Shown piece after piece: positions 1-44,220 of a stretch of 44,333 nt of DNA (position 1 is its first letter; each line of letters begins with the position of its first letter). This DNA comes from Tissierellia bacterium (GTDB taxonomy: Bacteria > Bacillota > Clostridia > Peptostreptococcales > Acidaminobacteraceae), in assembly GCA_012520095.1 (NCBI GenBank), contig JAAYOV010000026.1:1-44333 (forward strand), given 5' to 3'. The position numbers and the translations under genes were made by a program. The notes beneath the pieces are model-generated. The model made no database searches. It saw nothing but the letters and a program-made list of their open reading frames with translations, and was not told the origin of the DNA.

Positions 1-184
1 TGAACCCCGTTCCTCTGAGCTGTCCGATATCCAGGTAGATCATGCGCGTGATCGTATAGACAAAGTAGAGTACGATGATGACGAAGAGATACTTAAAGAC
101 ATTGGCAAACACCATGTACAGATTGATCTCTCCGATGAGATTGGTGTAAAAAATCTTCTCGATGATTTGCAGGAGTTTATCCAT
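1..184 (-). CDS. membrane-anchored protein, N-terminal fragment (possible FHA-domain protein)
   Basis: The gene starts at an ATG (182-184) behind a strong GGAGGAG ribosome site and runs off the left edge. The 61 visible residues begin MDKLLQIIEKIF and hold one hydrophobic stretch (about residues 31-47, KYLFVIIVLYFVYTITR) followed by MIYLDIGQLRG. This layout, a short N-terminus, one transmembrane helix and a juxtamembrane YLDI-like stretch, resembles the start of FHA-domain proteins that accompany FtsW/RodA and penicillin-binding protein genes in clostridia. That is a family resemblance only: the FHA domain would lie outside the window. It is read in the same direction as the giant gene upstream but is separated by a GC-rich hairpin and has its own promoter-like sequence. 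Any other single-pass membrane protein is possible. Confidence 0.5.
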   Translation of the reverse strand, partial: MDKLLQIIEKIFYTNLIGEINLYMVFANVFKYLFVIIVLYFVYTITRMIYLDIGQLRGTGF

Positions 185-328: not shown

Positions 329-354
329 AACAGGCGGGGCACCCCCCGCCTGTT
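329..354 (-). terminator. GC-rich hairpin after the giant gene
   Basis: An uninterrupted 11-bp stem (AACAGGCGGGG / CCCCGCCTGTT) with a CACC loop lies 43 bases past the stop of the 2825-codon gene. The following T run on the minus strand is short (TTTG), so termination may be imperfect or helped by Rho. It separates the giant gene from the left-edge gene. Confidence 0.65.
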
Positions 355-396: not shown

Positions 397-3300
397 TCAC
401 AACGTCATATCAAAACTCGCGCTGACCGATCCGCTGACATCATAGAGAAAGAGATTGAGACTATAGGAGACCTTTGCCGAGCATGTAAGCTGCCATGCGT
501 CTTTGGGAGGCGGAATGGTTTCAATCGTCCCCCGTGCATCCAGATACAAATGAATGATGTCGAAGCGTTCTCCGAAGACCTTGATTCCTCCTTCTACACC
601 TCCTTTTAGGTACAAAGTGAGGATAAATTTCGGCCCGAGAAACTTTCCGTCCTCATTTTGATAATTTGCATAGTATCCCCCGTCCGCACCGGCATAGAGA
701 TACCCTTTCAGATAGACGATCTCCACACTCACGCTGCGCTCAAAGCCGAACTCGAGTTTACATCTGATGATGTTCGCTCCGTCGTCATCCAGGCGAAAAC
801 CTAGGCCCATCCCTACTCGGAAGATGTCGATATTTCCTGCGAGCGTCTCCGGATATCCTACATAGACACCGAAGAGTTTGGGGCTGAACTCAAAGCCCAA
901 TGACCCGCTGAGTTTAGCATAGATCATGTCGATTTCATTGAGCGTCATATTAAAGGAAAAGTAACGCTCAGGATGACTGTAGAGAATCTGAACGTCGCCC
1001 ACATGCTTGAAGCCACCACTGTCGGGTTTAAGGATTATTGCAATATCCAGCGGCAGATACAGGCCTCCCGACGCCTCCACCAGCGGTCCGTCCTCGAAGC
1101 CGAAGTAGAGGTTGCGCACCTGCGCAATCCCCCCGATATTGAGCTCTCCTTTAATGGCGGCGCCAAACCTGCCGTCTTTGCTTTGATCGACCTGAAGTTT
1201 TGCGATGAACTCTCTCATCTGCGCCTTCCCGTCCGGGAAGACCAGATGCTTCTGCGCATTGCGCTCGACGATCATATTGCTGACAACGAGTCCGGAAAAC
1301 TTATCCATGTTGCCTATTCCCACATCGAGTTTTCCGCCTCCGTCTTTTTTCAGCATACCGATGGAGAAATAGCAGCGCGCATTGTCGACATCGTAGCCGA
1401 AACGGGTGATCGTATCGATCGGCAACTCCCCGAGACTCCCGAGAAATCCGAGTTCCAAGTTCTCCGTTTCAAACTCGATGAGACCCTTTTCTATCTCCCC
1501 GATCTTTTTTTCAGCCTCTTTGCTCTTCTGAGCATCGGATGCCCACATCACGGATTGATGCATTGCCGCAGCGGGAGCAAGAGGTTGCGTCTGCCAGCTT
1601 TGCGGTGGGGCATCTTCCAACCGCTTGGGAACCAGGATACCTTTTACATCGATGCATTCATCAAAACTCGTTTCGAGCACTGAATACGACTTGTCATAGA
1701 TCACGACCGGCAATTCAAGCTCCGGTCCTCTGAGCGTATCGAGTGCGATGCAGTCCGTCGTTCCAGAGCCCATCGCAAAGTCCTCCGAGAGGAGCACCGA
1801 GCCCCAGAGCGAGAAACGCGTGGGCGCATTGTCTTGCGCTCTCTTTGAGAGATACTCGAAATTGATCTCCCGAATATCCAGAGAGAAACCCTGCATATGG
1901 ACGGGAGCCGTCTTGTCGAGGGTCGCCCAGGCATGCAATTTGTCAGCGTTATTGTCTGCAAAGGTGTCTGTCTTATTCGCAGGTACCACCATCGTCGTAA
2001 ATTTCATCGGCTCTTTCAGCTGAATTTCCGGAGTATTCAAGTCGATGGAGCCGCCGAAGCGCATTCCCTCCGATTCCAGGAAGCCTCCGTCGACGGTGAG
2101 CGTCGTGCCCAGTCCTACGAAGTTTTCTATTATCGTGGGCGCAACCGAACAGAGAAACTCTCCGCCCTTTGCGTTTGCATTGTCTTCTTTATTTGTGTAG
2201 AGCTTCACTTCCACCCAATTATTATTGAACAGCTCCAGTGCTACTTTGGCATTGATCTCCAAGTTAATCTTATTGGCATACATGTCGAGAAGACAGTCAA
2301 ACACCCTCACCTGCTTAAAGCCGCCGAGCCTGTCACCGAATTCAGCGGGAACTCCTTCTTTATTATCACTATATAGGAAAGTTTGATAGTTGAAGCCGTT
2401 GAGATCGTAAATCATCTCTCCCTCGGCCAACGCAAAATCTATAGGGTCACCTTTCGTTGTTTGAATAAAGGCGGTCGGAAGCGTCAGATAGCCGCCCTTG
2501 AAGACCATCCCTACCCAGAAAGGCTTCTCCGTCTCCCGAGGTGTCTGAGACCCTGCTGTTGCCGGAATAAATGCATTTCGATCGAGATCGATGCTGATCT
2601 GTGTGGGAGTCACATTGATTCCCTGATCTCGCTGATCCTCCATCTTGAGGCTTCGCTCAGCTACACGCACCGGCGTGAGACTTGCGGCCTCAACAAGGAA
2701 ACCCTCTCCCATCCAGTCGTTTACACTGAACTCCGCATAGGCGCAGTTCTTTTGCATCTCAGCATCTGCCGGGACAATCAACAGTCCGTTCTTTTGCACT
2801 GTCTGTCCGAATTTGATGAAGAACTCCGTCGTCGTCAGATCACCGTGCTTTTCCTTGTCATATTCGGGATGCATCATATAGTCCATCGTATTAAATGCAC
2901 TGTGACTGCCTGCATAATTTCCCGGAACACCGGGTCCCATATACTCAGCCTGCTCAAAGGGAAGAATTACCCTGCCCCGAATATACCCTTCATCAGTCGG
3001 AACGCCATTTTTATAGACAATGCCGGCTTTTACTTTCAGCCCCACTCCGCCCGGGACAAGAAGCTGCAGGAATTGTCCACCGGAGTCCGGTGCTTCTTCT
3101 ATTGTCTCTAACATTCCGCTGATCCGGCCGTGTGCGTCACATGAGAGGCCTCTGGCGATCATTCGTATGCCTTCATTGTTAAGTGTTTCCAGAGGAGCTT
3201 TCAGTGTCGCCTCTGTAACAAAGGAAAGAACCTCCTCTGAGTCTTTATTTGTATCCAAGGAGATCGTAACAGACGAGACTCTGTCCAGAGTCAGCCGGTC

Positions 3301-6300
3301 GAGGCGGATCTCAGGAAGAACGCTCTTCTCTCCGTGTTTTAATCCGACATAGATGTCCGTGTCCCCGCGCAATAGTGCATCGGTAAAAGCGAAGCCGGAA
3401 AGATTGCCAATCAGATTCTTGCTTGGATCCGAATTTTGAACGAACCCGCTGGCCATTGCCGCCCCGTTAAAAGGAACACTCAGGGAACTGATGGTAACCC
3501 CGATCTCTTCAAGCTTATATGGCTTGTCCACGTAGAGAATCCCGTCGGTAAAAACGGTCTTTCCGTTCTCCTCTACAAAATCCGCTCTTGCGATGCACAC
3601 CGGGAGAATCTGCCCGAAACCGGGCTCTCCGAAGACCAGCTCTGCACTTCCCTCGTACCAAGTTTTCACATTGGGCGTAAACAGAGAAGGATTTTCAAGG
3701 ACGATATTCCTGAGAGTAAATCCCGCGAAGTCGCCAAGGTCACTTGTATACTTGTCACTCAGCAAAATATCCTGTCCTACGGGAGGCAGAATGATGATAT
3801 CTCTCGGGAACATCCCCAGTCTCAATATTTCCGGAGAAAAGCTCTCTGAAAGGGCAAGACTCCGATACGTTGAGGGCTCAGGCTCAATCCTGAACGACAC
3901 GAGGCTTCCCGTATCTTCTTGCCCGCGGTTTAAACTGTAGCCGACCTGAATGATAAACGACACCGTATCCGATCCGTAACTATTGCTCGCCTCTAAAATG
4001 CCCTCGTAAGTGCCATTGGCGAGATCCTCTGAAACGATCAGTTTCCTGCCGTAAATATCTATTTCAACCATGTTGGTGACAGGAAGGCCATAGACATCTG
4101 TCAGCGTCAAGGTAAAGGTTATCGGCTCCATCCCGATCACTGAAAAAGGTATTTCTCCTCCCTGACCGTAAATAAAACTAAAATGATCCTCCTCAAGCGT
4201 CAACCACGGGGAACCGCTATCAAACATCCCCGGCAAGCTCTCCAGAACCTCGAGATAGAATGCAACTTCTGCCTCACCGGCATCATTGATGGCTGTCAGT
4301 GTCACTTCATATGTGCCAGGGATTAAGGTTCCGGGAATCAGGACTTCATTTCTGCCTTCCGGGACGATGATTCCGCCTTCGTCCTGTCCTGAACTATGCC
4401 AGGCGGAGATCTCAAAGCGAATCGGCTCTGAGCCGCTGACAATAAACGGAATCCTCAGTTCGCTCCCTTCATCCACAGAATATGACCGTGAATCCATCGA
4501 AAGAAAAGGAGGTTGAGCAGTTGCTTCTCTGGGAATCTCCGTCCTGGGGAGCTCAATCGTCACATTTTCACGCGCCAGAATCGGCTCGGAAAAATCGCTC
4601 AAATAACCTCCGGTATCGAGCACCCGCACTTTGTACCAGTTTGTGGCGGCCCTGTCTGCCTCGTAGTCGATCCACCCTGTAGAAAATACCAGAGGGCTTG
4701 CCTGAACATAGGTTCCTTCTTTCTCTGTAGAGGAGTAGACGATGTAACCGACCGTGTCCTCCAGGCACTGCTTCTGAGTCAGTCCCTCCATGCGGGGTTT
4801 ATTCCATGTGAGATTGATCGAGGGAAAGTCTCCATGACTGATGGTATATTCCAGACCGTCGATCGGATCAAATCCTCGGTTTCTGCGTGGAGTCGCTTCC
4901 ACGGGTTCCGGCCTGGTTGAACCCAGTTCGTCATCATTCCAAGCCTGTACCGTATAGAGATAGTGGGTTCCATATTTTGCGTCATAATCGATGATCGATA
5001 GAGGTTTTTTCAGCCCCGTATCCGGATCGACCTGCTCTTGTGAATCCTCATCGACGGGAAGTTCGCCTATCTTCTTCCACTTTACAAGTCCCATCATTTG
5101 AATACTCAGATCACGGTACTCCGAAACTGCAAGAGGACCTAACTCATGAATGATCCTCGAGTAAGTATCCTGTCGCCTGGAGACATCCACCTGAGACAGC
5201 TTTTCCGAAAGAAACGTCGGCTGCGAAAGATTTACCGTTTTAAAACCGAGAAGAGCATTGACCGTCAGGTTCGACCCCGATTGAGCGGATTCTGTACCTT
5301 TTTTCAATATCGCTGTGAGGAATTTGTCGTTCTCTGTCGGTGTTGCGAAAATCTGCTCCATGATCGATGGGTCAATATTTATCAGTTTTTCTGCCGTAAT
5401 CTTGGGGATTTCTGCACGATAGACCTCATAGCGGCAACAGTACTCTACGGAAGAGAAATTTACCTCGATCCCGTCTTTTCTCGAAAGAGGAAGCAGGAGG
5501 TTGGGTGTCTGCGGCGGCTTCGTCGAAGGCACACGAAATTTTTCTACCGCACCCACACTCGACTCGACTCCCCAAGGCGAGACGGCCGTAATCTTATAGT
5601 AGTAATAGTGAGCGTGGCTCTGTTCAACAGGATCTGTATACTGCGTGCCGAAGACCAGATCACCCACCATTGTCCACTCCAGTTTCGACTCATCTACAAG
5701 CTCTTTGAAATTCTTCACTTCACTGCGATAGATGCGATAATACTTGACTTGAAGATCCTGCGGCTCTTCCCATTCGAGAAGCACAAAGCCTCCCTCAGGA
5801 TTTTGATTGATGGGAAGTTCCCCGATAACACATTCAAGGAATTTAAGTTTCAATTCTCCTGTTTCCTTCTCTGTGCTACCTTCTTCTGACGAAATGCTCT
5901 CAGCCTCCGGTTCCAAGCAGATGAGAAAAATATGAACTCCATCTCCTTCGGACTTGAGCCCTTTCACGAGGTATTGATTTTGTTCCAGGGCGTTCTCTGT
6001 AAGCTTCGTCCACTGACCCATCGCCATCAGCTCTTCGCGGTCAATAGTACGAACATTTTCAATGGACGGCAGCTCGCCTCTCAGCTGGTAAACGGCATAT
6101 CCTCCCAGATTATCGCCACTGTAGGCAGGCCACTTCAGGCGCGCTGATCCGTCCGGAAGAACATCTCTTGCCCGGACTCCTAGAAAGACGTGGATGTACT
6201 TCTGCTCCGGGAGATTGTCGAAGAATCGTGAAAGAATCAAAGGCGCTCCTTTTTCGCCGATGAAACTCCCGATTTGAGTTCCGGAAATGTCCGCCATTTC

Positions 6301-8874
6301 CACAAGAGAGGTGTTTTCCGCACTCAATCTGTCCGGTTTTTCACTGTTTTCTTCCACATTTGTGAAAGAAATATTGCCATCGGAGACGAGCCCGGGTGCC
6401 AAACAGGAGAGATCCGGCAGTTTTCTTGCCATCATGGAGATCGTGATCTTGTCGGGAACACTCGGTTCCTGCTGAGTCGGAACACCGATGGCACAGGACT
6501 TGGACCAGGCGCTCTCATTGTCCCATGAGTCCCAGGCAGAAACCCAATATTTATAAGTCACTCCCTTCTTTATGTTCGCATCAAAATAGACCATGTCCGG
6601 AGCCATGGGCTCGTCATTTTTCAAAAAGAGTTGCCTGGCTGTAAAGAGTCTTCCAAAATCATATTGAGCGGTGGCAATGCCCGGAACTCCTGCACTCCTC
6701 GGCATCTGCATACCACCTTCCTTGAGTTCGGGAGGAACCGTATCAGGCAAGGTTCCTTCTTTACCCCCCTCCCCTTTTTTCGGATTGTCAAAGCGGAAGT
6801 TTGCCAAGGGCACCGGTTCACTGAAGGGTCCCACACCAACCGCCTCAGCTCGGTAGAGGGTAAATCGAACCGTGTCAGGCGATTCATTGAAAATCGGGAT
6901 GACGATACCTTCTTTTCGCTTGTTCTTTGCTATGGATTCTTGAATCGCTTTGCCGAGAACATCATCGGAAACAACAGGTGCTTCGCTGCCGGAAAGAACT
7001 AAAGAGGAGGTCGTGGGCGCATCGGGAGGCGTCACTTTCTCCACTCGAATATCTATGGGATCACAGCACTCGCTTCGTCTTCCGAAAATATCTATAGAGT
7101 ATAAGCGGTACTGCGCCTTTGTCCCGTTTTCCAGTTTTTCCTGATACATCACAGGCATCTCGAAGAACACTCCCGTCTCATCGAGAACTTCGGTGATGAC
7201 AACCGGCTTTTCATGGATGGGAACATAATCAGACTCTCCCTCAAGTTTTCGCTCGATAAAGTAGCCGCTGATGATCCTTCCTTCTGCTTCACTGGCGGGC
7301 TTTCTCCAGCGAAGGCATACTTTTCCATCCAATCCGTATCCGAGAAATCCTTCCGGTTTTGTCAGAGGAAGCTCTTCTCCCCAGCACAGTTTCACACTTG
7401 CACTCTGTCCTCCGGGGGATTCAATTGTATAGATGATCTGCTCACCGTTTGAAAGATTCTTTCCGGAAAAATCGTCCTTGAACAAAAATCCGGCTTCCTC
7501 AGCGAATTCGTCGTCAACAAATGCCAAAGTAGAAATTTGCTGACGGGCTCCAAGAGTCGTCGCAGCAGCCTCATAGAGTCTGTTTTCCCCTTCTGCACCC
7601 GGCAGGGCAAGAGTCTGAATCCCACTCGGGAGCTCCGCTTGGTATACAGAAAATTGTTCCAAGACATGCGATCGGATCACTCCCGCTTCATAGCGTCCGT
7701 TCTCAGGCAGATTCATGATCTGAACAGGAGAATTCAGCACACGATCGGACTCGGGTATTTTCTGATCTATTCCGTCGGGAATCGTAATCTGCGCCTGCTT
7801 CATGAGAAGGAAGTCCGTCTCTCCTCCCAAATGAACGACCTCTTGAAGCATGGGACGCGTCTGATACATCTTGTCATGGAAGGTCGCTTCATCCATTCCC
7901 AGTATCGCCCGATCTTCTGGCGTATACTCAGCTGCCTGGTAGACCTGGCGGATTTCCTGCGCCTGCGGATGCTGGAAATCTTGTGTCAGAAGCGTCTGCG
8001 TCGCAGCCTGCTTCTCTGCAATCAGCTCTCTCTCACTTCCAATCTGCCTATATATGCGATAACCCGCCTCAGGAAGCCAGTCCGCTTCAGGAATCATATG
8101 AATCAGAGATTCTCCCGGGTTTTGCCAGATGCCCTTCATATTGATGGAGGAGGGCATGCGCTCCCATTCTCCGTATTCTGCAACCTTCAGAAGAACATCC
8201 ACCTTCTCGTCCAATCGACTGAATAATTCCTGCTGTAGAGCATACGATTTGCGCGCATGGATGGCATCTCCCGGACGACTGAAATCAATAGATTGCGCCG
8301 CATTATCGAGCCTTTTTGCTCCCTCAGTTTTAGGAAGCGGATCCCTCTTTTCTATCGGCGCAGGCTCCGGCATATAGGGTTTCAAATCATCTTCAGGTCC
8401 GGGAGGCTTTTCTTTGACAGGCTCTTCAATGGGCGAAGAGTGAAGTGTCACCAGATCCCCCATGGGAAGTTCATCCTCTTTTGCCCGCTCTTCCAGTTGC
8501 CTTTCAATCTCTCTGAGATTGTTGAGAGCGTAGCGCGAGTCCACAATATCTACAAGATTCTCTGCTGCAAGGAGTTCCTCAGCAATATTCGGGCTTCGCA
8601 AAAAATCCTCAATATCGGGACTCTGACAATACAACAATTCGTTGAGTGTCTGCGGTCTTTCCTCTTCCTTTGGACCGAGAATGTATTCGCGATCGGGAAG
8701 ATAATCAAATCCGCTTTGATCCAGGTTCAGCCCTCCGAAATCCAGGGCTCCGAATATAAAAAGAACTCCTACAACGACAACGAGAGTGATTCCGGACGCA
8801 ATCAGTGAGCTCCGGAGCGGATTCTTCTGAAATTGGGTGACCAACCAATTCTTAATTAAGAGCAACGTATTCAT
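397..8874 (-). CDS. giant membrane-anchored surface protein with FN3-like and Ig-like domains
   Basis: 2825 residues, start ATG at 8874 chosen for its GGAGG site 7 bases upstream; the in-frame codon 15 bases earlier overlaps that site. Residues 1-23 are basic, and 24-44 (LIASGITLVVVVGVLFIFGAL) form one transmembrane helix or uncleaved signal anchor, so the rest should lie outside the cell. An acidic/proline-rich linker spans about 60-200. Fibronectin-III-like strands (LRW, LKW, LEW, LTW with YxVY or YRIYR pairs) recur near 510, 910, 1030, 1135 and 1355. Two Ig/cadherin-like domains follow near 1450-1640 (SYSVDEGSEL; TYEVTLTAINDAG). Residues about 1640-2825 are glycine-rich alternating beta strands I cannot assign. 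No LPXTG or C-terminal anchor is visible; the protein ends SVSASFDMTL. The frame is intact. I infer a cell-surface or envelope-spanning scaffold or adhesin; function unknown. Confidence 0.85.
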   Translation of the reverse strand: MNTLLLIKNWLVTQFQKNPLRSSLIASGITLVVVVGVLFIFGALDFGGLNLDQSGFDYLPDREYILGPKEEERPQTLNELLYCQSPDIEDFLRSPNIAEELLAAENLVDIVDSRYALNNLREIERQLEERAKEDELPMGDLVTLHSSPIEEPVKEKPPGPEDDLKPYMPEPAPIEKRDPLPKTEGAKRLDNAAQSIDFSRPGDAIHARKSYALQQELFSRLDEKVDVLLKVAEYGEWERMPSSINMKGIWQNPGESLIHMIPEADWLPEAGYRIYRQIGSERELIAEKQAATQTLLTQDFQHPQAQEIRQVYQAAEYTPEDRAILGMDEATFHDKMYQTRPMLQEVVHLGGETDFLLMKQAQITIPDGIDQKIPESDRVLNSPVQIMNLPENGRYEAGVIRSHVLEQFSVYQAELPSGIQTLALPGAEGENRLYEAAATTLGARQQISTLAFVDDEFAEEAGFLFKDDFSGKNLSNGEQIIYTIESPGGQSASVKLCWGEELPLTKPEGFLGYGLDGKVCLRWRKPASEAEGRIISGYFIERKLEGESDYVPIHEKPVVITEVLDETGVFFEMPVMYQEKLENGTKAQYRLYSIDIFGRRSECCDPIDIRVEKVTPPDAPTTSSLVLSGSEAPVVSDDVLGKAIQESIAKNKRKEGIVIPIFNESPDTVRFTLYRAEAVGVGPFSEPVPLANFRFDNPKKGEGGKEGTLPDTVPPELKEGGMQMPRSAGVPGIATAQYDFGRLFTARQLFLKNDEPMAPDMVYFDANIKKGVTYKYWVSAWDSWDNESAWSKSCAIGVPTQQEPSVPDKITISMMARKLPDLSCLAPGLVSDGNISFTNVEENSEKPDRLSAENTSLVEMADISGTQIGSFIGEKGAPLILSRFFDNLPEQKYIHVFLGVRARDVLPDGSARLKWPAYSGDNLGGYAVYQLRGELPSIENVRTIDREELMAMGQWTKLTENALEQNQYLVKGLKSEGDGVHIFLICLEPEAESISSEEGSTEKETGELKLKFLECVIGELPINQNPEGGFVLLEWEEPQDLQVKYYRIYRSEVKNFKELVDESKLEWTMVGDLVFGTQYTDPVEQSHAHYYYYKITAVSPWGVESSVGAVEKFRVPSTKPPQTPNLLLPLSRKDGIEVNFSSVEYCCRYEVYRAEIPKITAEKLINIDPSIMEQIFATPTENDKFLTAILKKGTESAQSGSNLTVNALLGFKTVNLSQPTFLSEKLSQVDVSRRQDTYSRIIHELGPLAVSEYRDLSIQMMGLVKWKKIGELPVDEDSQEQVDPDTGLKKPLSIIDYDAKYGTHYLYTVQAWNDDELGSTRPEPVEATPRRNRGFDPIDGLEYTISHGDFPSINLTWNKPRMEGLTQKQCLEDTVGYIVYSSTEKEGTYVQASPLVFSTGWIDYEADRAATNWYKVRVLDTGGYLSDFSEPILARENVTIELPRTEIPREATAQPPFLSMDSRSYSVDEGSELRIPFIVSGSEPIRFEISAWHSSGQDEGGIIVPEGRNEVLIPGTLIPGTYEVTLTAINDAGEAEVAFYLEVLESLPGMFDSGSPWLTLEEDHFSFIYGQGGEIPFSVIGMEPITFTLTLTDVYGLPVTNMVEIDIYGRKLIVSEDLANGTYEGILEASNSYGSDTVSFIIQVGYSLNRGQEDTGSLVSFRIEPEPSTYRSLALSESFSPEILRLGMFPRDIIILPPVGQDILLSDKYTSDLGDFAGFTLRNIVLENPSLFTPNVKTWYEGSAELVFGEPGFGQILPVCIARADFVEENGKTVFTDGILYVDKPYKLEEIGVTISSLSVPFNGAAMASGFVQNSDPSKNLIGNLSGFAFTDALLRGDTDIYVGLKHGEKSVLPEIRLDRLTLDRVSSVTISLDTNKDSEEVLSFVTEATLKAPLETLNNEGIRMIARGLSCDAHGRISGMLETIEEAPDSGGQFLQLLVPGGVGLKVKAGIVYKNGVPTDEGYIRGRVILPFEQAEYMGPGVPGNYAGSHSAFNTMDYMMHPEYDKEKHGDLTTTEFFIKFGQTVQKNGLLIVPADAEMQKNCAYAEFSVNDWMGEGFLVEAASLTPVRVAERSLKMEDQRDQGINVTPTQISIDLDRNAFIPATAGSQTPRETEKPFWVGMVFKGGYLTLPTAFIQTTKGDPIDFALAEGEMIYDLNGFNYQTFLYSDNKEGVPAEFGDRLGGFKQVRVFDCLLDMYANKINLEINAKVALELFNNNWVEVKLYTNKEDNANAKGGEFLCSVAPTIIENFVGLGTTLTVDGGFLESEGMRFGGSIDLNTPEIQLKEPMKFTTMVVPANKTDTFADNNADKLHAWATLDKTAPVHMQGFSLDIREINFEYLSKRAQDNAPTRFSLWGSVLLSEDFAMGSGTTDCIALDTLRGPELELPVVIYDKSYSVLETSFDECIDVKGILVPKRLEDAPPQSWQTQPLAPAAAMHQSVMWASDAQKSKEAEKKIGEIEKGLIEFETENLELGFLGSLGELPIDTITRFGYDVDNARCYFSIGMLKKDGGGKLDVGIGNMDKFSGLVVSNMIVERNAQKHLVFPDGKAQMREFIAKLQVDQSKDGRFGAAIKGELNIGGIAQVRNLYFGFEDGPLVEASGGLYLPLDIAIILKPDSGGFKHVGDVQILYSHPERYFSFNMTLNEIDMIYAKLSGSLGFEFSPKLFGVYVGYPETLAGNIDIFRVGMGLGFRLDDDGANIIRCKLEFGFERSVSVEIVYLKGYLYAGADGGYYANYQNEDGKFLGPKFILTLYLKGGVEGGIKVFGERFDIIHLYLDARGTIETIPPPKDAWQLTCSAKVSYSLNLFLYDVSGSVSASFDMTL

Positions 8875-9305
8875 TTTCCGCCTCCACACTGTGAATAAGC
8901 CGTGTATGATAACTCTCTTCGATAGATAGGCGACAGCACATAAACCGGATACGCTGTTGCGGGGTGGACGGAAGGAGATGCTCCTCCACGCTATTTCTTT
9001 CTCAGTCTAGATTTATAGACTTTATATTTATGCAAGGTGCTTCGACGTGTAGATAGATATGTGCAGACAAACATTACAAGAAGAAAAGACTGACGCCGTT
9101 TTATTGCAATCGATCTTACGACTGCATAGCTCCACTTTCAAAACAAAAGCGTTTTTTGGCAGACAATACTCCGTGTTGCTATTTCTCCATTTATCATAAA
9201 AAAATAGAAGGTCATAGAACATACCCGAAAGGGTACAGATTTTTAATAAATTTGCCTCACTTTTTCACTATTTCGACGACCGAACCGGACTCGATGAAAA
9301 CACAA
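8875..9305. other. gene-free leader region of the giant gene
   Basis: About 430 bases hold no convincing gene. Three consecutive inverted repeats lie toward the giant gene: 9004-9021 (AGTCTA/TAGACT), 8964-8989 (GTGGA..GGAG atg CTCC..TCCAC) and 8930-8960 (GCGACAGC/GCTGTTGC). Farther out, TACCC-GAAA-GGGTA at about 9223-9236 is a GNRA-capped hairpin, followed on the plus strand by TTTTT. I found no good -35/-10 pair for the giant gene and no match to a riboswitch class I know. Confidence 0.5.
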
Positions 9306-15909: not shown

Positions 15910-16126
15910 AAATCATCCTCCAATCCCTATACATTTTATTATTGTAACATATTATTTTTGAGATACTTCATATATCTCGCCAAAAAAAGCGAAACTCAGG
16001 TATAATAATTTGAGCAGGACATGCTTGTACGACTGTCAAAGCCGCTTTGTGTTCAACCAGCCGTTAAGATCATTATGCACACTCCTGCTAATACAATTAT
16101 TCAATCGTTCTACTAAGGAGGAAACA

Positions 16127-17479
16127 TTGAAGAAAAAGGTTTATGTACTGCTGGCACTCATACTGGTGTTGGCAATCGTCTCCGGCGCCTGCTCAAAGCC
16201 TGCAGAGCCTTCTGCGCCTGCAGCTGAGAGCACCCCTGAATCACAGGAAGAGCCGACAACATCGGAAGAACCCGTTTCGCTGACTGTTCAAGCAGAAACC
16301 GCTTGGGTACCTCACTACGTAAAAGCCATTGATCGTGTGCTGAGCGTATACCCGAACGCTGACATCACTATTATCGAGACAGGCGCATTCGATCATCTCA
16401 ATGTCATTGACGCAACCGACGCTACCAATGTCGACGTCGCCGACGTCTTTGCGCTTCCGGCTGACCGCATCTACGGTCTTTCAAATTCCGAAGTGCTGGC
16501 CGGCATCGACTCACCGGCACTGGCTGCCGACTTGGGTGGATTTGCCGACTTTGACGCCGGACTGGGCGGAAACTTTAAGATCGACGGTGAATACCTTGCA
16601 TTCCCCTACAATATCGAGACGCTGATCTCCTTTGTCAATGTCGCCAACGCAGAAGCGGAAGGCATTGATCACACCGCACCCTTCGAACTCAACGATGTCA
16701 CAAAACCTGAGCCCGTCCTCCTGCCGGCGTTTGACGCCTGGTTCGGAGTCGCTCTGACAAACTCGGCAGAAATTGAACTTCTTGGAAAAGATGAGTCCGG
16801 CGCACTGTTCTCCGATATGACAAAAGAGTGGGCAGAGCTTGAGCCTGAAAAGCAAGCGGCCATTGAATCTCTCTACAATTATTGGAAAGTACAGTACGAC
16901 AACAACACCCCTCTCTTCGACCCTGAAGCAGGTTGGGGATTCATCGACGACACCTTCGCCACCGGCGGTTCAGGCGTCATCCGAATTGACGGGCCCTGGG
17001 GCACCGCAGGAATTTCCGAACAAGCCGGCAACGGAGCTGATCTTGAAATCTATCCCCTCTCCCAGATTACAGTGGCAGGCAAACCCCTGACACACTGGAA
17101 AGGCGGATGGGGACTCGGAATCAATAGCCGCATCGAAGAAGATGCACCGAAAATGGAAGTCGCTCATGCTCTGATCAAAGAAATCGTCAACCCTGAATAT
17201 GCAGTGGATCTGTTCAAAGCCACCGGCAAGATCCTTGAAAATGTCACTGCCGAAGCATATGCAGAAAGCGATCTCTCCGACGTTGACAAGAAGGTCATCG
17301 CCTCTGTCATCGCCTCATATGAAGAAGCTCCTGCTCGACCGCTCTTCACTGAGTGGGGAAGTGTCTGGGATACCTGGAAAAACAGCATTCTCTCTTGGAA
17401 TGCACAGACACCTGAGTCTCCGGAAGAAGCTTATAAAGAAATCAAAGCATCCTTTGATGCTATGATGAGCAATTTTTAA
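16127..17479 (+). CDS. sugar ABC transporter substrate-binding lipoprotein
   Basis: 450 residues from a TTG start preceded by AAGGAGG; the longer in-frame reading lacks a ribosome site and would bury the signal peptide. The N-terminus KKKVYVLLALILVLAIV is a lipoprotein signal ending at Cys22 (SGAC; the -3 residue is Ser rather than Leu), followed by a Pro/Ala/Glu/Ser linker (about 23-50). The rest resembles family-1 (maltose/oligosaccharide) receptors: an HYVKAIDRVLSVYPNADITII first strand, a VIRIDGPWGTAGI core stretch and a GKPLTHWKGGWGLGIN ligand-lobe stretch rich in aromatic residues suited to stacking on sugars. It is the first gene of an importer operon. The exact sugar cannot be told; no glycosidase is nearby. 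Confidence 0.9.
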   Translation: MKKKVYVLLALILVLAIVSGACSKPAEPSAPAAESTPESQEEPTTSEEPVSLTVQAETAWVPHYVKAIDRVLSVYPNADITIIETGAFDHLNVIDATDATNVDVADVFALPADRIYGLSNSEVLAGIDSPALAADLGGFADFDAGLGGNFKIDGEYLAFPYNIETLISFVNVANAEAEGIDHTAPFELNDVTKPEPVLLPAFDAWFGVALTNSAEIELLGKDESGALFSDMTKEWAELEPEKQAAIESLYNYWKVQYDNNTPLFDPEAGWGFIDDTFATGGSGVIRIDGPWGTAGISEQAGNGADLEIYPLSQITVAGKPLTHWKGGWGLGINSRIEEDAPKMEVAHALIKEIVNPEYAVDLFKATGKILENVTAEAYAESDLSDVDKKVIASVIASYEEAPARPLFTEWGSVWDTWKNSILSWNAQTPESPEEAYKEIKASFDAMMSNF

Positions 17480-17492
17480 TCGCAGTTAAACG

Positions 17493-17527
17493 AAAGGAAG
17501 AAAGGGATATACCCTTTCTTCCTTTTT
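17493..17527 (+). terminator. terminator/attenuator between receptor and permease genes
   Basis: A perfect 14-bp stem (AAAGGAAGAAAGGG / CCCTTTCTTCCTTT), loop ATATA, then TT, lies 13 bases after the receptor stop and 14 bases before the next start. The stem is A/G-rich on one arm. In ABC importer operons such elements let the receptor be made in excess over the permease. Confidence 0.85.
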
Positions 17528-17540
17528 CACAGGAGTTCAC

Positions 17541-17948
17541 ATGTCTTCGCCAAAAATCCCCCGCCGTGCAATGATCATACTATTGCTGCTATGTGCAGCG
17601 CTGGTCATGCTTTTGAGCCTCGAGGTCCTATTTCTGGTCAAAGACGCAGATTTTTACAGTAACTTTCAGGCTCGACAGAGTGGAGCGACATTTTCCGACT
17701 ACCTTAATGCTCGTCTTTTTATGTATTTTATACAGATCGTTCCGATCATGTCCGTTGCACTCTATACTTTTTTTCTGGCTCAGCGCATGGGAACACCTCC
17801 CGCTTATAGATTGATCTGGGGACTCTTGTTAGGAGCATCGGCGCTTCTGCGATTATTGCAGACAACTTTGATGATGCCTGTATCGCTGGGAATCCTCGCT
17901 GTCTATATTGCACTGATTCTGGTGGTGATCAATATCCATCGTCTCTGA
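17541..17948 (+). CDS. small membrane protein of the sugar importer operon
   Basis: 135 residues, ATG start with CAGGAG upstream. I do not recognise a family. Four hydrophobic segments can be seen: about 10-33 (AMIILLLLCAALVMLLSLEV), 58-80 (LFMYFIQIVPIMSVALYTFFLA), 88-108 and 111-131 (VSLGILAVYIALILVVINI), joined by short loops with a basic N-terminus, so it is probably a four-helix integral membrane protein. It sits between the receptor and the MalF-like permease with only 13 bases to the latter, which suggests an accessory of the transporter. It carries no EAA loop and is not itself a permease of the MalFG type. Confidence 0.75.
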   Translation: MSSPKIPRRAMIILLLLCAALVMLLSLEVLFLVKDADFYSNFQARQSGATFSDYLNARLFMYFIQIVPIMSVALYTFFLAQRMGTPPAYRLIWGLLLGASALLRLLQTTLMMPVSLGILAVYIALILVVINIHRL

Positions 17949-17961
17949 AAGAAGGTGACCA

Positions 17962-20007
17962 TTGAAGACCCCACGCCCGCTCCTCGATGACATAGGGAAT
18001 GTCCGAGAGAGAAAAAACTTGTATTTAAAAGAGCTCTTTGAAGCAGAAGCCGCTGATAATAAAGAGGAGATCCGACGATTAAAAGCGCAGCGCTCCTCTC
18101 ATACATACAATCTTTCCCTGGAAGAAGCAAGAAAAAAAGAGGCCATATTTCTAAAAGAGCTCCGACAAAAAACGGATGAGTACGAGAAGACTCTCTCATC
18201 TGACCCTCTGAAAAATCTGAAATCAGAGGCCTTTGCCGCTGCGCAAAAGTATTCCTTTTATCAGCAATTAAGTGACTTGAGCTATGACTTTTCCTTTCTA
18301 GCAGGGGAAAATGATTTCCGTCAAGACCAACTGCCGCGCATCATCGCAAACCAAGAGGCTCTGATGGAGCGCTTCTCTTCTGCAGAAGCCAAGCTCGCTG
18401 TCGAAAAATCAAAAGATCACAGTGCTTTTGAGAGGGAAGCCGAGCTCTATCGCCAAGAGAGAAAGGCCCAACTACAGAGAGATTTGGTTGATCTTAAAGC
18501 GAAACAAAAACAGCGAATCATCAGCGATAAAGCATTTGCCAATGAGAAAAAGATGGCGCAGCTTGCCGCAAGAGATGATATTCGAGCCAAACAAAACGCG
18601 CATCCGGTAAAACGTCTGGAAGAAGAGAAGAGGAATCTCAGATACCGGCTGAAGAACGATCTGCGCCTTGGACTCAAAGTCCTTGAGAGTGACATCTCTG
18701 ATCTCAGGAGAAAAACTCCCATCGAGATAGAGCAGAGCATTCCTTGGAAGAGCTTTCTCTCGATTCCCCTCCCGGGGCTCGGACAGCTTCTCAACGGCCA
18801 GTGGCAAAAAGGGATATTCTTTTTCATCGCCTCCGCTTTCATCTACCTCGCCGCCATTCCCTATGCCCTAGGCTACGCAAACTATCAGGGAACAGGTATC
18901 AGCGGCCTCATCACTCTTGCCGAGGGCGGTGCTCGTCTGCATCGCTCGATCATCTTTATGGTCGAGGGGATCATCGCCATCTTCCTCTTAATCTTTGCAG
19001 CCGCACTTTTCATTATCTCTTTCCGCGACACCTATGAGACGGAGAGGAGAAAAATGCATGGGATCCGGCCCTTTACTTGGTTTGAGAGCCGAGTGACAAT
19101 TGAGGAAAAGGGATTTCCATATCTCGTAACTCTTCCTGCACTGATCGTCACCGTCTTTATCATCCTAGTACCGATCATGACGACGATCCTCATTTCCTTT
19201 ACAAATATGGATCCGAATCATCAGTCCAAGTTCAATTGGATCGGCATCGCCAATTACAAACTCATCGCTCTCGGACAGGGAATAGCCGGAAGCGCTTTCT
19301 GGCTGATTTTGGGATGGACTCTCATCTGGACCCTCGGAGCAACGACGCTTGCCATCTCTATCGGCTTTATTCTCAGCCTCCTTGTCAATCAGGAGAGACT
19401 CAAGGGCAAGAAGTTTTTCCGCACGGTCTTCTTATTGCCATGGGCAGTGCCCGCCTTTATTACGATTATGTTCTTTTCCATCATGGTCTCTTCCACAGGA
19501 CCGATTACACAGATCATCAAGGCAGTGACAGGGCAAGTCATTAATATCAAAAACTCTTCCACTCTGACTCGAATATTCCTCATATTCCTGCAGGGATGGT
19601 TGGGAAGTGCCTATATCTTCCTTCTGTCCACCGGCGTCCTCCAGGGGATTCCTTCCGATCTCTATGAGGCGGCGGAGATTGACGGCGCAACGAGCTGGCA
19701 GAAGACGATGCGCATCACCGTGCCGCTGATCCTTTTCCAGACCGCGCCGCTGCTTGTAGGACAGTACACATTTAACTTCAACAACTTTTCTATCATCTTC
19801 CTGTTCAATCAGGGAGGGCCGTTTAATCCCAGCTTATACGGTAATCTCGCAGGGAGCACCGACATCCTGATCTCCTATATTTATAAACTGACGATACAAA
19901 ATCAATATCAAGGAATCGGAGCGGCGATTACAATCGTGATCTCTGTTGTTTTGATGTTTGTGGCGTGGCTGGGCTACCGAAATACCAAGGCCTTTAAGGA
20001 GGAGTAG
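17962..20007 (+). CDS. MalF-like sugar permease with N-terminal coiled-coil extension
   Basis: 681 residues from TTG, with a GAAGGTGA site upstream. Residues 1 to about 250 are highly charged, Glu/Lys/Arg/Ala/Gln-rich and helical, with likely coiled coils (RKKEAIFLKELRQKTDEYEK; ERKAQLQRDLVDLKAKQKQ) and no signal peptide, so they should be cytosolic. Next comes PLPGLGQLLNGQWQKGIFFF, a motif seen ahead of the first helix in some Gram-positive MalF homologues, two helices to about residue 355, and a six-helix permease core. The EAA loop that docks the ATPase is YEAAEIDGATSWQKTMRITVP. Ordinary MalF-type permeases are about 290-450 residues in Gram-positives, so the cytosolic extension is unusual. 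The gene ends 2 bases before malG. The permease call is firm; the extension's role is unknown. Confidence 0.92.
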   Translation: MKTPRPLLDDIGNVRERKNLYLKELFEAEAADNKEEIRRLKAQRSSHTYNLSLEEARKKEAIFLKELRQKTDEYEKTLSSDPLKNLKSEAFAAAQKYSFYQQLSDLSYDFSFLAGENDFRQDQLPRIIANQEALMERFSSAEAKLAVEKSKDHSAFEREAELYRQERKAQLQRDLVDLKAKQKQRIISDKAFANEKKMAQLAARDDIRAKQNAHPVKRLEEEKRNLRYRLKNDLRLGLKVLESDISDLRRKTPIEIEQSIPWKSFLSIPLPGLGQLLNGQWQKGIFFFIASAFIYLAAIPYALGYANYQGTGISGLITLAEGGARLHRSIIFMVEGIIAIFLLIFAAALFIISFRDTYETERRKMHGIRPFTWFESRVTIEEKGFPYLVTLPALIVTVFIILVPIMTTILISFTNMDPNHQSKFNWIGIANYKLIALGQGIAGSAFWLILGWTLIWTLGATTLAISIGFILSLLVNQERLKGKKFFRTVFLLPWAVPAFITIMFFSIMVSSTGPITQIIKAVTGQVINIKNSSTLTRIFLIFLQGWLGSAYIFLLSTGVLQGIPSDLYEAAEIDGATSWQKTMRITVPLILFQTAPLLVGQYTFNFNNFSIIFLFNQGGPFNPSLYGNLAGSTDILISYIYKLTIQNQYQGIGAAITIVISVVLMFVAWLGYRNTKAFKEE

Positions 20008-20009
20008 TC

Positions 20010-20897
20010 GTGAAGAAAAAGAAAGAGGGACTTTATCTTTCGGATCGTCCTCCCCTAAGTCCCGTCGGAAAACTGCTGTTGGCTCTTTCCTACGTCGTTC
20101 TGGCAATATGGACGATCATCATTTTATGGCCTCTGTCGCAGATGTTCATCTCCAGCTTTAACGGAACACAGACAAAGCACATCACTATGGGAAGCCGTTT
20201 TGAGTTTTCCCTTAAACATTTCGAATATCTGTTTTATGAGACCAACTTCCTGCTCTGGGTGAAGAATACTCTCTTTATCGCCATCGCTACGGCACTCCTG
20301 ACCCTTCTCATCGTATCTTTTACAGGATATGCATATTCGCGCTACCGATTTAGCGGACGAAGAATGAGTCTTCTTGCAATCATGCTGATCCAGACCATTC
20401 CCACTTTTGCCGGAATCACCGCCTTTTACACGATGCACAGCATCATCTCGGGCTTTGCTCCCTTCTTCACCAGACAAGCCCTTCTCATTCTCATTTATGC
20501 AGGAGGCGGAATCGCATCCAACACCTTTATACTAAAAGGATACATCGACTCGGTCTCCACCGAGCTTGACGATGCGGCAAGAATCGACGGTTGTTCTCAC
20601 ATGCAGGTCTATCGCCTCATCATCATGCCTATTGCGCGCCCCATGCTCGCCATAATCGCATTGTGGAGCTTTATCGGCCCCTTTATGGACTATATGATGG
20701 CTGCGATCCTTCTAACCAGCAACGAGGCGCTGACGCTTGCACCGGGGCTCTTTACCCTCATCAACGACACTCGCACGATGAATCAGCCGGCCTTTGCCGC
20801 CGGAGGACTTCTCACTGCGATACCGATCATTATTTTATTTATCGCCCTTCAAAATCAGCTCGTAAGCGGACTGGCTCAAGGCTCAGTGAAGGGATAG
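20010..20897 (+). CDS. MalG-like sugar ABC permease
   Basis: 295 residues from GTG with AAGGAGGAG just upstream, so its ribosome site lies inside the end of the previous gene. It forms the second half of the transmembrane channel. After a charged N-terminus (KKKKEGLYLSDRPPLSP) there are six hydrophobic segments starting with LLALSYVVLAIWTIIILWPL. The EAA-type loop is LDDAARIDGCSHMQVYRLIIMP (DD replacing EA), followed by PMLAIIALWSFIGPF, and the protein ends GLAQGSVKG as in MalG homologues. It is followed within 8 bases by the ATPase gene, consistent with one transcript. Confidence 0.95.
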   Translation: MKKKKEGLYLSDRPPLSPVGKLLLALSYVVLAIWTIIILWPLSQMFISSFNGTQTKHITMGSRFEFSLKHFEYLFYETNFLLWVKNTLFIAIATALLTLLIVSFTGYAYSRYRFSGRRMSLLAIMLIQTIPTFAGITAFYTMHSIISGFAPFFTRQALLILIYAGGGIASNTFILKGYIDSVSTELDDAARIDGCSHMQVYRLIIMPIARPMLAIIALWSFIGPFMDYMMAAILLTSNEALTLAPGLFTLINDTRTMNQPAFAAGGLLTAIPIIILFIALQNQLVSGLAQGSVKG

Positions 20898-20905
20898 GAG
20901 GCATT

Positions 20906-21991
20906 ATGCGCGTTGAACTTAAAGACATTGGTAAAAAATATGAAGGCAGAGAGAACTTTACTCTCCGCCACATTGATCTTACGATCGAAGAAAAAGCTTT
21001 CTGTGTCATACTGGGTCCATCCGGATGCGGTAAAAGCACTCTTCTGCGCATGATTGCGGGACTGAACTCCATTACCGAAGGCGAGCTTATTTTCAACGGG
21101 AAACTGATGAACAAGGTTCCACCGAAAGATCGTGATATCGCCATGGTCTTCCAATCCTATGCCCTCTATCCGCATATGAGTGTCTACGACAATATGGCCT
21201 TCAGCCTCTCTCTTCGAAAAGAGCCCAAAGAGATCATTCGCGAACGCGTCCTCGAAGCGGCGGAAATTTTACAGATCTCTGAGTATCTCTACAATAAGCC
21301 CTCTGATATCTCCGGCGGACAAAGACAGCGCGTGGCACTTGGCCGTGCGATGGTCAGAAAGCCCCGTGTCTTTTTGATGGATGAGCCTCTCTCCAATCTC
21401 GATGCCAAGTTGCGCGAACATATGAGAGTGGAGCTCGTTCGCCTGCACAAGAATCTCGGAACCACTACCATCTACGTCACTCATGACCAAACAGAAGCGA
21501 TGACGATGGCAGATATGATCGTTCTTATGAACGACGGGAAAATCATGCAAAAGGGAAGCCCGGAAGAGTTCTATCACCACCCGCAAAATCTCTTTGTAGC
21601 AGGTTTTATCGGCTCGCCTACGATGAACCTCTTTTCGGGGATCATAAAGGGCGGGAAGTTTTACTCAGAAGGCGGCGCTCTCGAAGTAGAGCCCTCGCCG
21701 AAAGACAGAAAAGCACTGGAAGACTATGAAGGAAAAAGCGTGCACATGGGAATCAGAAGCGAGAGACTGCTTGCCGGCAAGACGGAAAAGAACACTTTCT
21801 TGGCGCAAGTCGATGTCATAGAAATACTCGGAAAAGAAAAACTCCTCAACTGCAAACTTTCAGACGAAAGCGACATCGTCATCTCAGTGCCTGGTCACTA
21901 TGAGTACGAAGTCGATGAATTCCACAATTTCCACTTCGATCTCGAGGCACTGCACTTCTTCGATTCAGATACTTCAGAACGCATCAATTAG
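20906..21991 (+). CDS. MsmK/MalK-type sugar ABC transporter ATPase
   Basis: 361 residues from the ATG at 20906 (MRVELKDIGKKYEG) preceded by AGGAGG; longer readings run into malG and were rejected. It contains Walker A GPSGCGKST, Q-loop FQSYALYPHMSV, signature SGGQRQRVALGRA, Walker B VFLMDEPLSNLDAKLR and the switch histidine in VTHDQTEAMTMAD. A C-terminal TOBE/OB regulatory part starts near residue 240 (GSPTMNLFSGIIKGG) and contains HMGIRSERLL. This architecture is that of CUT1 importer ATPases, which sometimes serve several transporters. It is the last gene of the importer operon, ending 17 bases before a clear terminator. Confidence 0.95.
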   Translation: MRVELKDIGKKYEGRENFTLRHIDLTIEEKAFCVILGPSGCGKSTLLRMIAGLNSITEGELIFNGKLMNKVPPKDRDIAMVFQSYALYPHMSVYDNMAFSLSLRKEPKEIIRERVLEAAEILQISEYLYNKPSDISGGQRQRVALGRAMVRKPRVFLMDEPLSNLDAKLREHMRVELVRLHKNLGTTTIYVTHDQTEAMTMADMIVLMNDGKIMQKGSPEEFYHHPQNLFVAGFIGSPTMNLFSGIIKGGKFYSEGGALEVEPSPKDRKALEDYEGKSVHMGIRSERLLAGKTEKNTFLAQVDVIEILGKEKLLNCKLSDESDIVISVPGHYEYEVDEFHNFHFDLEALHFFDSDTSERIN

Positions 21992-42910: not shown

Positions 42911-43093
42911 TTAAATATACTTAAAAGCCGGAGCTTTTAGTACGTCTCCCTTCTTTATATAATGTTGGTTCAAAGCATCAGCGATGCTCTTTAGACCTTT
43001 CCATATAGGCGGCATCAGACAAAATATCCCCGTTATTTCATTGAGCGTTAAAAATAGCTCACCTTTATTCTCTTCCCCATCTTTCTTAAGCAT
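42911..43093 (-). CDS. small protein of unknown function in the hydrogenase cluster
   Basis: 60 residues (starts [20 protein letters not shown], ends KKGDVLKAPAFKYI). I do not recognise it. It overlaps the end of the phosphatase gene by 46 bases and stops 5 bases before the hydrogenase ATG, a coupling pattern that supports translation. A weak GAAGAG ribosome site precedes the ATG. It is mixed hydrophilic, without cysteines that could bind an FeS cluster apart from one (IFCLMPP), so it is unlikely to be an electron carrier; an adaptor or maturation partner is possible. Function unknown. Confidence 0.55.
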   Translation of the reverse strand: MLKKDGEENKGELFLTLNEITGIFCLMPPIWKGLKSIADALNQHYIKKGDVLKAPAFKYI

Positions 43094-44220
43094 TTCGACA
43101 GCTCTTCTACTAAGTTCATTTTAATATTGAAATTGATGGGCAGATCCGGGTTTTGATGGGCGGGGTTGACCGCACGTCCGACATAAAAATTAATATCGGT
43201 TGCTTCTTCAAACAGCATTCGACAGATCAGAGATGCTCCATCGCGCTTAAAATTCCAGTGCTCATATTGTTTATTGTCTTTAAGATAGTCTTTGGCGTAT
43301 TCAAGCACTTTATTAATGGTGATCACGCCTTCCGTAACCAGATCCACACCTTCAATTTCAGCAATCGGAGGTACGTCGGCATCTACGAAATCAAGACTCG
43401 GTTTTAGAGGCTTACCTAAGAACCTTGCGGCAATGGCAGAAGTCGTCCCACCACAGACAATATGCTTTCCTTCTTTTGAAAAAAACAACGACATCATGCG
43501 ATTGTCATCATCACGATTAGCAGGAGGCCCGAGCAACATATTCATTGGCTCTCTTTTTCTGATGCGAACGACACAGGCCGTCGCATCGTCGCCGGGTTGA
43601 TGAGCGTAGAGTCGATCGCATTTTTCAATCAGAACAGTGGATAGAGTCTTGGCCGTATATCCCCCATACGAAAGCGCTTGCATAAAATCAGCGATATCTT
43701 CACGCTTCCATCCAAAATTGTATGCCGCGCCGATACCTGCGTGAGCACAGCCATCGCTGATAGCAATGAAAAGATCGTTTTCATGCAGATTGATAGTAGA
43801 CCTGAAGATCTTCTTGCCATCGATATTGATTTCCGTTCTCGGATACTCCCAAAAATTATTGTCGCGGATGACAATAATATGAGGATTATCATATTGAATT
43901 AACTCGGCCACTCGGTTATTCCTGATGTGAATAATCGTAAAAGTGGCATATGCCACACCGCGAACCGAACAAACCGGAAGCGTGGCGGCAATGGTTTGAA
44001 CGCATTCTTCCAGACTTAACTCCTCCGCCAACATGGTAGAAATGATTTTCGATGTTAATGTCGAAAGGATGCTCGCTTTCACACCGCTTCCAAGTCCGTC
44101 AGAAAGCACGACAACCGTTGTATCGTCACTTGGTTCTACGACAACCACATGGTCACCACAGAGCTGCTCGCCAAAATAATTAATGCTTTTATAGCCGATA
44201 TCCGTACATAGATCATTCAT
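43048..44220 (-). CDS. SpoIIE/PP2C-type serine phosphatase
   Basis: 390 residues. The N-terminal two thirds form a PP2C-like (SpoIIE) phosphatase: metal-ligand motifs [15 protein letters not shown] (about residue 36-50), [12 protein letters not shown] (about 155-166) and [11 protein letters not shown] (about 208-218), with [15 protein letters not shown] between. The remaining C-terminal part (about 235-390; [20 protein letters not shown]) is a separate domain I do not recognise. Such phosphatases dephosphorylate serine or threonine on regulators, for example anti-sigma-factor antagonists. Here it sits between two hydrogenase-like genes: it overlaps the upstream hydrogenase partial gene by 8 bases and the downstream small gene by 46. 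I infer that redox or H2 status is passed to it. Confidence 0.85.

Follow-up and report, generated by a model that had tools for sequence, protein, structure and literature searches.

What kind of protein is encoded by the 8.5-kb gene at the left end of contig JAAYOV010000026.1 from a Tissierellia bacterium, and what might its large beta-rich C-terminal half do? The window analysed here is the whole 44,333-nucleotide stretch of that contig. On its minus strand a single frame of 2,830 codons runs from a GTG at 8889 to a stop at 397, and the start at ATG 8874 gives exactly 2,825 residues. This is the intact protein proposed by an earlier sequence-only reading, which named no strand; the plus-strand reading of 397-8874 is full of stops. 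The gene and its flanking signals are as follows.

397..8874, minus strand: giant gene, 2,825 residues plus stop, ATG at 8874
8881..8885, minus strand: ribosome-binding site GGAGG, 6 bases before the ATG
329..354, minus strand: GC-rich hairpin with an 11-bp stem (z -3.6) downstream of the stop, resembling a terminator apart from its poor T run

The hairpin was not called in a terminator scan. The protein has a net charge of -162 and 22 scattered cysteines. A strongly negative net charge is common in exported surface proteins.

Distribution and phylogeny of the family

The C-terminal region is found in about 22 genomes, mostly of the class Clostridia, a count that includes the window's own genome and an end fragment in G1149. 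Scattered carriers occur in at least ten families of Clostridia and in two other classes. Among about 390 additional members of the class, 12 genomes matched a profile of the C-terminal half, as did 2 in a sample of about 397 from the phylum, and searches of the family and order added further carrier genomes. The gene is absent from most relatives, and is patchy even among close ones. No match was found in plasmids, in 50,697 phage genomes or in viral contigs. Two matches were set aside as chance: that in G133, whose frame appears to encode an anti-sigma-factor-like membrane protein, and that in G1204 (E 9.7e-4 over 73 positions). In G1061 the gene only looks split, because a run of N fills a scaffold gap there.

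An unbroken frame of 2,730 residues with about 40% identity is present in G016 (a Clostridiales MAG, DTU036), and unbroken frames of 2,464 to 3,027 residues are present in G741, G751, G490, G546, G574 and G485. In the nearest homologue, G001 of the same genus, the gene is split over two contigs, with 68% and 77% identity for the two parts and dN/dS of about 0.11 and 0.09, ratios that are rough as dS exceeds 1.6 and is saturated. As the C-terminal region recurs in about 21 other genomes, several with unbroken long genes, and dN/dS is about 0.1, the frame is real, and the assembly artefact against which the sequence-only reading had cautioned is ruled out. This family of giant, probably surface-located proteins is real, conserved and undescribed.

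In the tree of the C-terminal region, G741 (family f35) and G757 (f90) group with the window's genome G000 and with G001 (both f1) at 74-79% identity, whereas G016, though also of f1, stands at 42% identity on a long branch. The starred branches of this tree force three changes each in families f17 and f72. The conflict between gene tree and taxonomy suggests transfer or repeated loss; besides such loss, unequal rates and mis-binned contigs may also be sources of it. GC3 of the giant gene mostly tracks that of its neighbours (0.38 to 0.74; the exception is G757, on a short contig), and any transfer would therefore be mostly old.

Anchor, modules and C-terminal region

The protein divides into the following parts, all on the minus strand.

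8749..8805, minus strand: membrane anchor helix, residues 24-42 (hydropathy)
4570..7377, minus strand: FN3-like array, residues about 500-1435 (Pfam, titin and PHROG matches; boundaries by eye)
3940..4527, minus strand: Ig/PKD-like modules, residues about 1450-1645 (domain matches)
400..3777, minus strand: conserved beta-rich C-terminal region, residues about 1700-2825, with the family-wide unit at about 1740-2825 (conservation)
400..2544, minus strand: last 715 residues, AlphaFold2 model from 22 sequences (mean pLDDT 74.9, pTM 0.49)
400..1425, minus strand: last ~340 residues, a predicted long amphipathic strand meander aligning weakly with outer-membrane barrels (VIA-align)

The helix at residues 24-42 has a mean Kyte-Doolittle value of 2.66 (next best segment of the protein, 1.43). 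LPxTG is absent from the whole 2,825-residue protein, which ends in SVSASFDMTL and so lacks the C-terminal LPxTG, hydrophobic stretch and basic tail of wall-anchored proteins. The single N-terminal anchor and the missing sortase signal were therefore read correctly from the sequence. Such anchoring was also called unusual, and it appears less odd now that relatives carry lipoprotein signals. A lipobox is absent in the window member, G485 has a lipoprotein signal with lipobox LTGC (SSSMLTGCKKK), and G574 has a lipobox-like but not canonical CTGC (LISICTGCQKS). Helices like the window's are found in G016, G751, G490 and G546, and anchors were read in detail in three members. As lipid-type N-termini occur in the divergent G574 and G485, N-terminal anchoring appears to be the property that is kept.

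Several FN3-like domains with long insertions are seen in the alignment, with boundaries set by eye. Pfam fn3 matched in three of nine relatives (best E 7e-4), the family profile matches titin FN3 chains (E 0.005), and residues about 1021-1111 match the FN3 region of the phage central tail fibre J (PHROG 31; E 1.6e-4). The Ig-like modules give matches to Invasin_D3, PKD, InlK_D3 and He_PIG; several of the FN3-like and Ig/PKD-like matches fall below Pfam cut-offs. Both kinds of module in the sequence-only reading are thereby confirmed. The likeness to tail fibre J is confined to one FN3 domain, with no other phage gene present and chromosomal metabolic neighbours. A phage tail fibre was thus rejected, as the C-terminal half is also unmatched in the phage genomes and viral contigs searched.

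The Ig/PKD-like region is missing from the G574/G485/G509 group and is longer in G741 and G546. It comes and goes while both flanks are kept, which is the behaviour expected from a spacer. The best-conserved stretches are residues 1051-1125, 1276-1425 and 2101-2250; in the first two, conservation of the FN3-like array equals that of the C-terminal tip. Such strong conservation argues that the array does more than keep the tip at a distance, and counts against a plain spacer.

The C-terminal half was proposed to be about 1200 residues long, beta-rich and of no described family. Its beta-rich character and its final residues stand, with the unit shared across the family shortened to ~1,085 residues. 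Its lack of a described family is borne out: Pfam searches with this half of the window protein gave no match at E up to 5-10, and an 18-row profile has no match to PDB sequences at E up to 10. In 18 relatives, Pfam gave only scattered weak matches to this half, each in a single member. No known adhesive domain was recognised in Pfam or PDB sequences, though this half may contain an undescribed one, and there are no internal repeats beyond one weak 31-column match. In a divergent relative in G871 (L047 2-1648, with its 5' part off the contig), a coiled-coil-like stretch precedes the conserved C-terminal 360 residues.

With three sequences AlphaFold2 reached a pLDDT of only 27.7, and 22 were needed for a usable model. 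The last 715 residues are predicted as an all-beta meander of about 30 strands with few helices and a disordered stretch at model residues 311-352. In a Foldseek search of the PDB, LptD was the top match (E 7e-6, TM-score 0.16) and apolipoprotein B was listed (E 9e-3), all of these matches having TM-scores of at most 0.16. With VIA-align, porins were on top, led by OccD2 (Z 13.7, rmsd 9.5 A over 247 residues, model residues 374-715 of a model with pTM 0.49); non-barrel folds may be missing from this list, and model residues 1-371 were barely probed. The long strands of the last third have one hydrophobic, nearly charge-free face and one charged face. In about half of the complete C-terminal ends an alternating hydrophobic strand leads up to a final F or L, as in the outer-membrane beta-signal, and the last residue of several members is G, S, A or I. 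The predicted likeness to LptD and outer-membrane porins is thus structural, a long antiparallel meander with one hydrophobic face. However, TM-scores reach at most 0.16 with rmsd of 7-10 A, there is no sequence similarity (the family profile scores negatively against E. coli LptD, E 0.15), and the host has Gram-positive sortase pili. The model is that of a meandering antiparallel sheet, from which placement in an outer membrane does not follow.

Genomic neighbourhood and host envelope

The genes upstream of the giant gene, to its right, share its strand and belong to the threonine pathway. To the left, window bases 1-127 recur in reverse complement at the start of contig G000:C12 (L076 1-127), and this assembly-graph overlap makes C12 the likely left neighbour. 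Contig-end overlaps of 127 bases are typical of de Bruijn assembly with k = 127, and further neighbours could be traced likewise. Across the junction runs the following gene.

2..184, minus strand: start of a downstream gene for a membrane FHA protein, continuing on contig G000:C12 (overlap with C12)

C12 encodes the remainder of the FHA protein, RodA/FtsW and a PBP2-type transpeptidase, all on the strand of the giant gene. The sequence-only reading had looked to the left for the partners of a secreted machine or of cell division. What lies there is a morphogenesis cluster rather than a secretion system, and the secreted-machine proposal is not upheld. Nor do FHA, RodA/FtsW or PBP genes flank the giant gene in the two relatives checked: the corresponding neighbours are a substrate-binding-protein-like gene and a HypB-like gene in G001, and an HTH regulator in G016 (names by eye). 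The only neighbours shared among the longer loci are small genes in close-relative pairs and a LuxR-type regulator, which adjoins the giant gene in three genomes (G751, G490 and G546) and has an apparently multi-spanning N-terminal half (by eye).

L034 3245-4723, L035 304-1746 and L038 5067-6509: LuxR-type HTH proteins of 480-492 aa, with 72-80% mutual identity

Near the giant gene in G1061 there are two shorter proteins whose HTH parts are related to these. No partner gene common to the whole family was found in the loci compared, and none of the neighbours points to adhesion. Elsewhere in the window, an ABC importer-like operon with two BPD_transp_1 permeases occupies 16010-21991; its first protein (16010-17479, 489 aa) and the small second one have no Pfam match at E 0.001. 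At 43048-44220 (minus strand) there is a protein with a SpoIIE-type phosphatase domain.

On host contig G000:C43 (L109 58-3571), a class C-like sortase lies between two pilin-like proteins ending LPETG and LPRTG. The pilin backbone carries GramPos_pilinBB, SpaA and Gram_pos_anchor domains, and the second protein has Cna_B and a helix with its LPRTG end. E. coli BamA, LptD and Skp have no match at E 0.01 in 607,587 bases (35%) of the host assembly. LpxA/LpxD-like matches in the host were rejected as evidence of lipid A, consisting of one 307-residue hexapeptide-repeat acyltransferase plus weak matches. From the sortase and LPXTG pilins, together with the lack of BamA, LptD and Skp matches in this 35% of the genome, the host is most likely monoderm. 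The sortase locus also implies a wall to cross.

Proposed role and alternatives

Fibrillar adhesins and Periscope proteins are described as long surface proteins in which a stalk of small beta domains projects a functional domain, with stalk length varying among homologues (PMC8286594, PMC9210967, PMC8201768). The giant protein likewise has a stalk of repeated small beta domains of variable length, and its surface anchoring would be provided by an N-terminal helix or lipobox. It differs in this N-terminal attachment by helix or lipid, with no LPxTG, and in having its conserved tip of ~1,085 residues at the C-terminus, with no described adhesive domain matched. The reading that we favour, at about even chances, is of a membrane-anchored, fibrillar-type surface stalk of reversed polarity with a beta-rich C-terminal binding tip. 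After export, the N-terminus would be fixed in the cytoplasmic membrane at its outer face, by the helix here and by lipid in divergent members. The stalk crossing the wall would consist of the FN3-like array together with Ig/PKD-like modules in varying number. The all-beta C-terminal region would do the work at the tip, where its target is most likely an extracellular surface, polymer or partner. The anchor signal, modules, variable spacer and conserved tip are read directly from the sequence; it is from these that we infer the extracellular orientation, the wall-crossing role of the stalk and binding by the tip, whether as adhesion or of a ligand. The envelope-spanning scaffold suggested earlier may survive in the form of such a wall-crossing stalk.

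The alternatives are given in falling order of likelihood. The C-terminal half may be a hydrophobic-cargo module, a curved sheet, groove or closed barrel holding a lipid or greasy ligand and moving or storing it in the envelope. The nearly charge-free face of the last long strands, opposite a charged one, and the Foldseek ranking of LptD and apolipoprotein B point this way, but the TM-scores of those matches are very low, amphipathic strands are equally expected of an ordinary two-layer fold, sequence similarity to E. coli LptD is lacking, and no lipid-transport genes are common to the neighbourhoods compared; we regard it as unlikely, though ahead of the readings that follow. Somewhat less probably, the protein assembles with itself into a coat or matrix, like an S-layer or a biofilm scaffold, instead of binding a specific target. 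Such assembly would need the FN3-like array to be conserved as well as the C-terminal region, as they are, the protein is giant, acidic and all beta-modular, and Deinococcus S-layers are built of Ig arrays (PMC10120038). However, the molecules are anchored singly in the membrane, no SLH-like or other wall-binding domain was recognised, and patchy presence among close relatives would be unusual for a main coat protein. Fainter again is the chance that the fold of the C-terminal half belongs to a new class: an amphipathic beta meander of great length, possibly closed and barrel-like, which would be displayed on a stalk outside a monoderm cell and carry hydrophobic cargo.

The genomic and envelope evidence bears on the two remaining alternatives. 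A role in division or elongation, alongside the FHA, RodA/FtsW and PBP proteins, is suggested by the same-strand position of their genes downstream, on the contig that overlaps the window end; with a stable hairpin between the giant gene and the FHA gene, different downstream genes in G001 and G016, none such in the other longer loci and the giant gene absent from most relatives, it is highly improbable. Least credible is a true outer-membrane beta-barrel, by which the protein would bridge the two membranes of a diderm cell. The porins heading the VIA-align list and the beta-signal-like F or L ends are what such a barrel should give, but the OccD2 alignment combines its Z of 13.7 with an rmsd of 9.5 A, and several members end otherwise. 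The barrel is made unlikely by a host that has sortase and LPXTG pilins and looks monoderm, with none of BamA, LptD and Skp matched in the part of the genome searched.

The surface stalk with a C-terminal binding tip thus remains the preferred reading. A conserved domain of this size without Pfam or PDB relatives, in a gene so scattered, is a sizeable annotation gap, and a curated family for annotation is supplied in any case. If the tip binds lipids or a solid substrate, the family would be relevant to the way in which fermenting Clostridia, anaerobic-digester lineages among them, deal with their environment.
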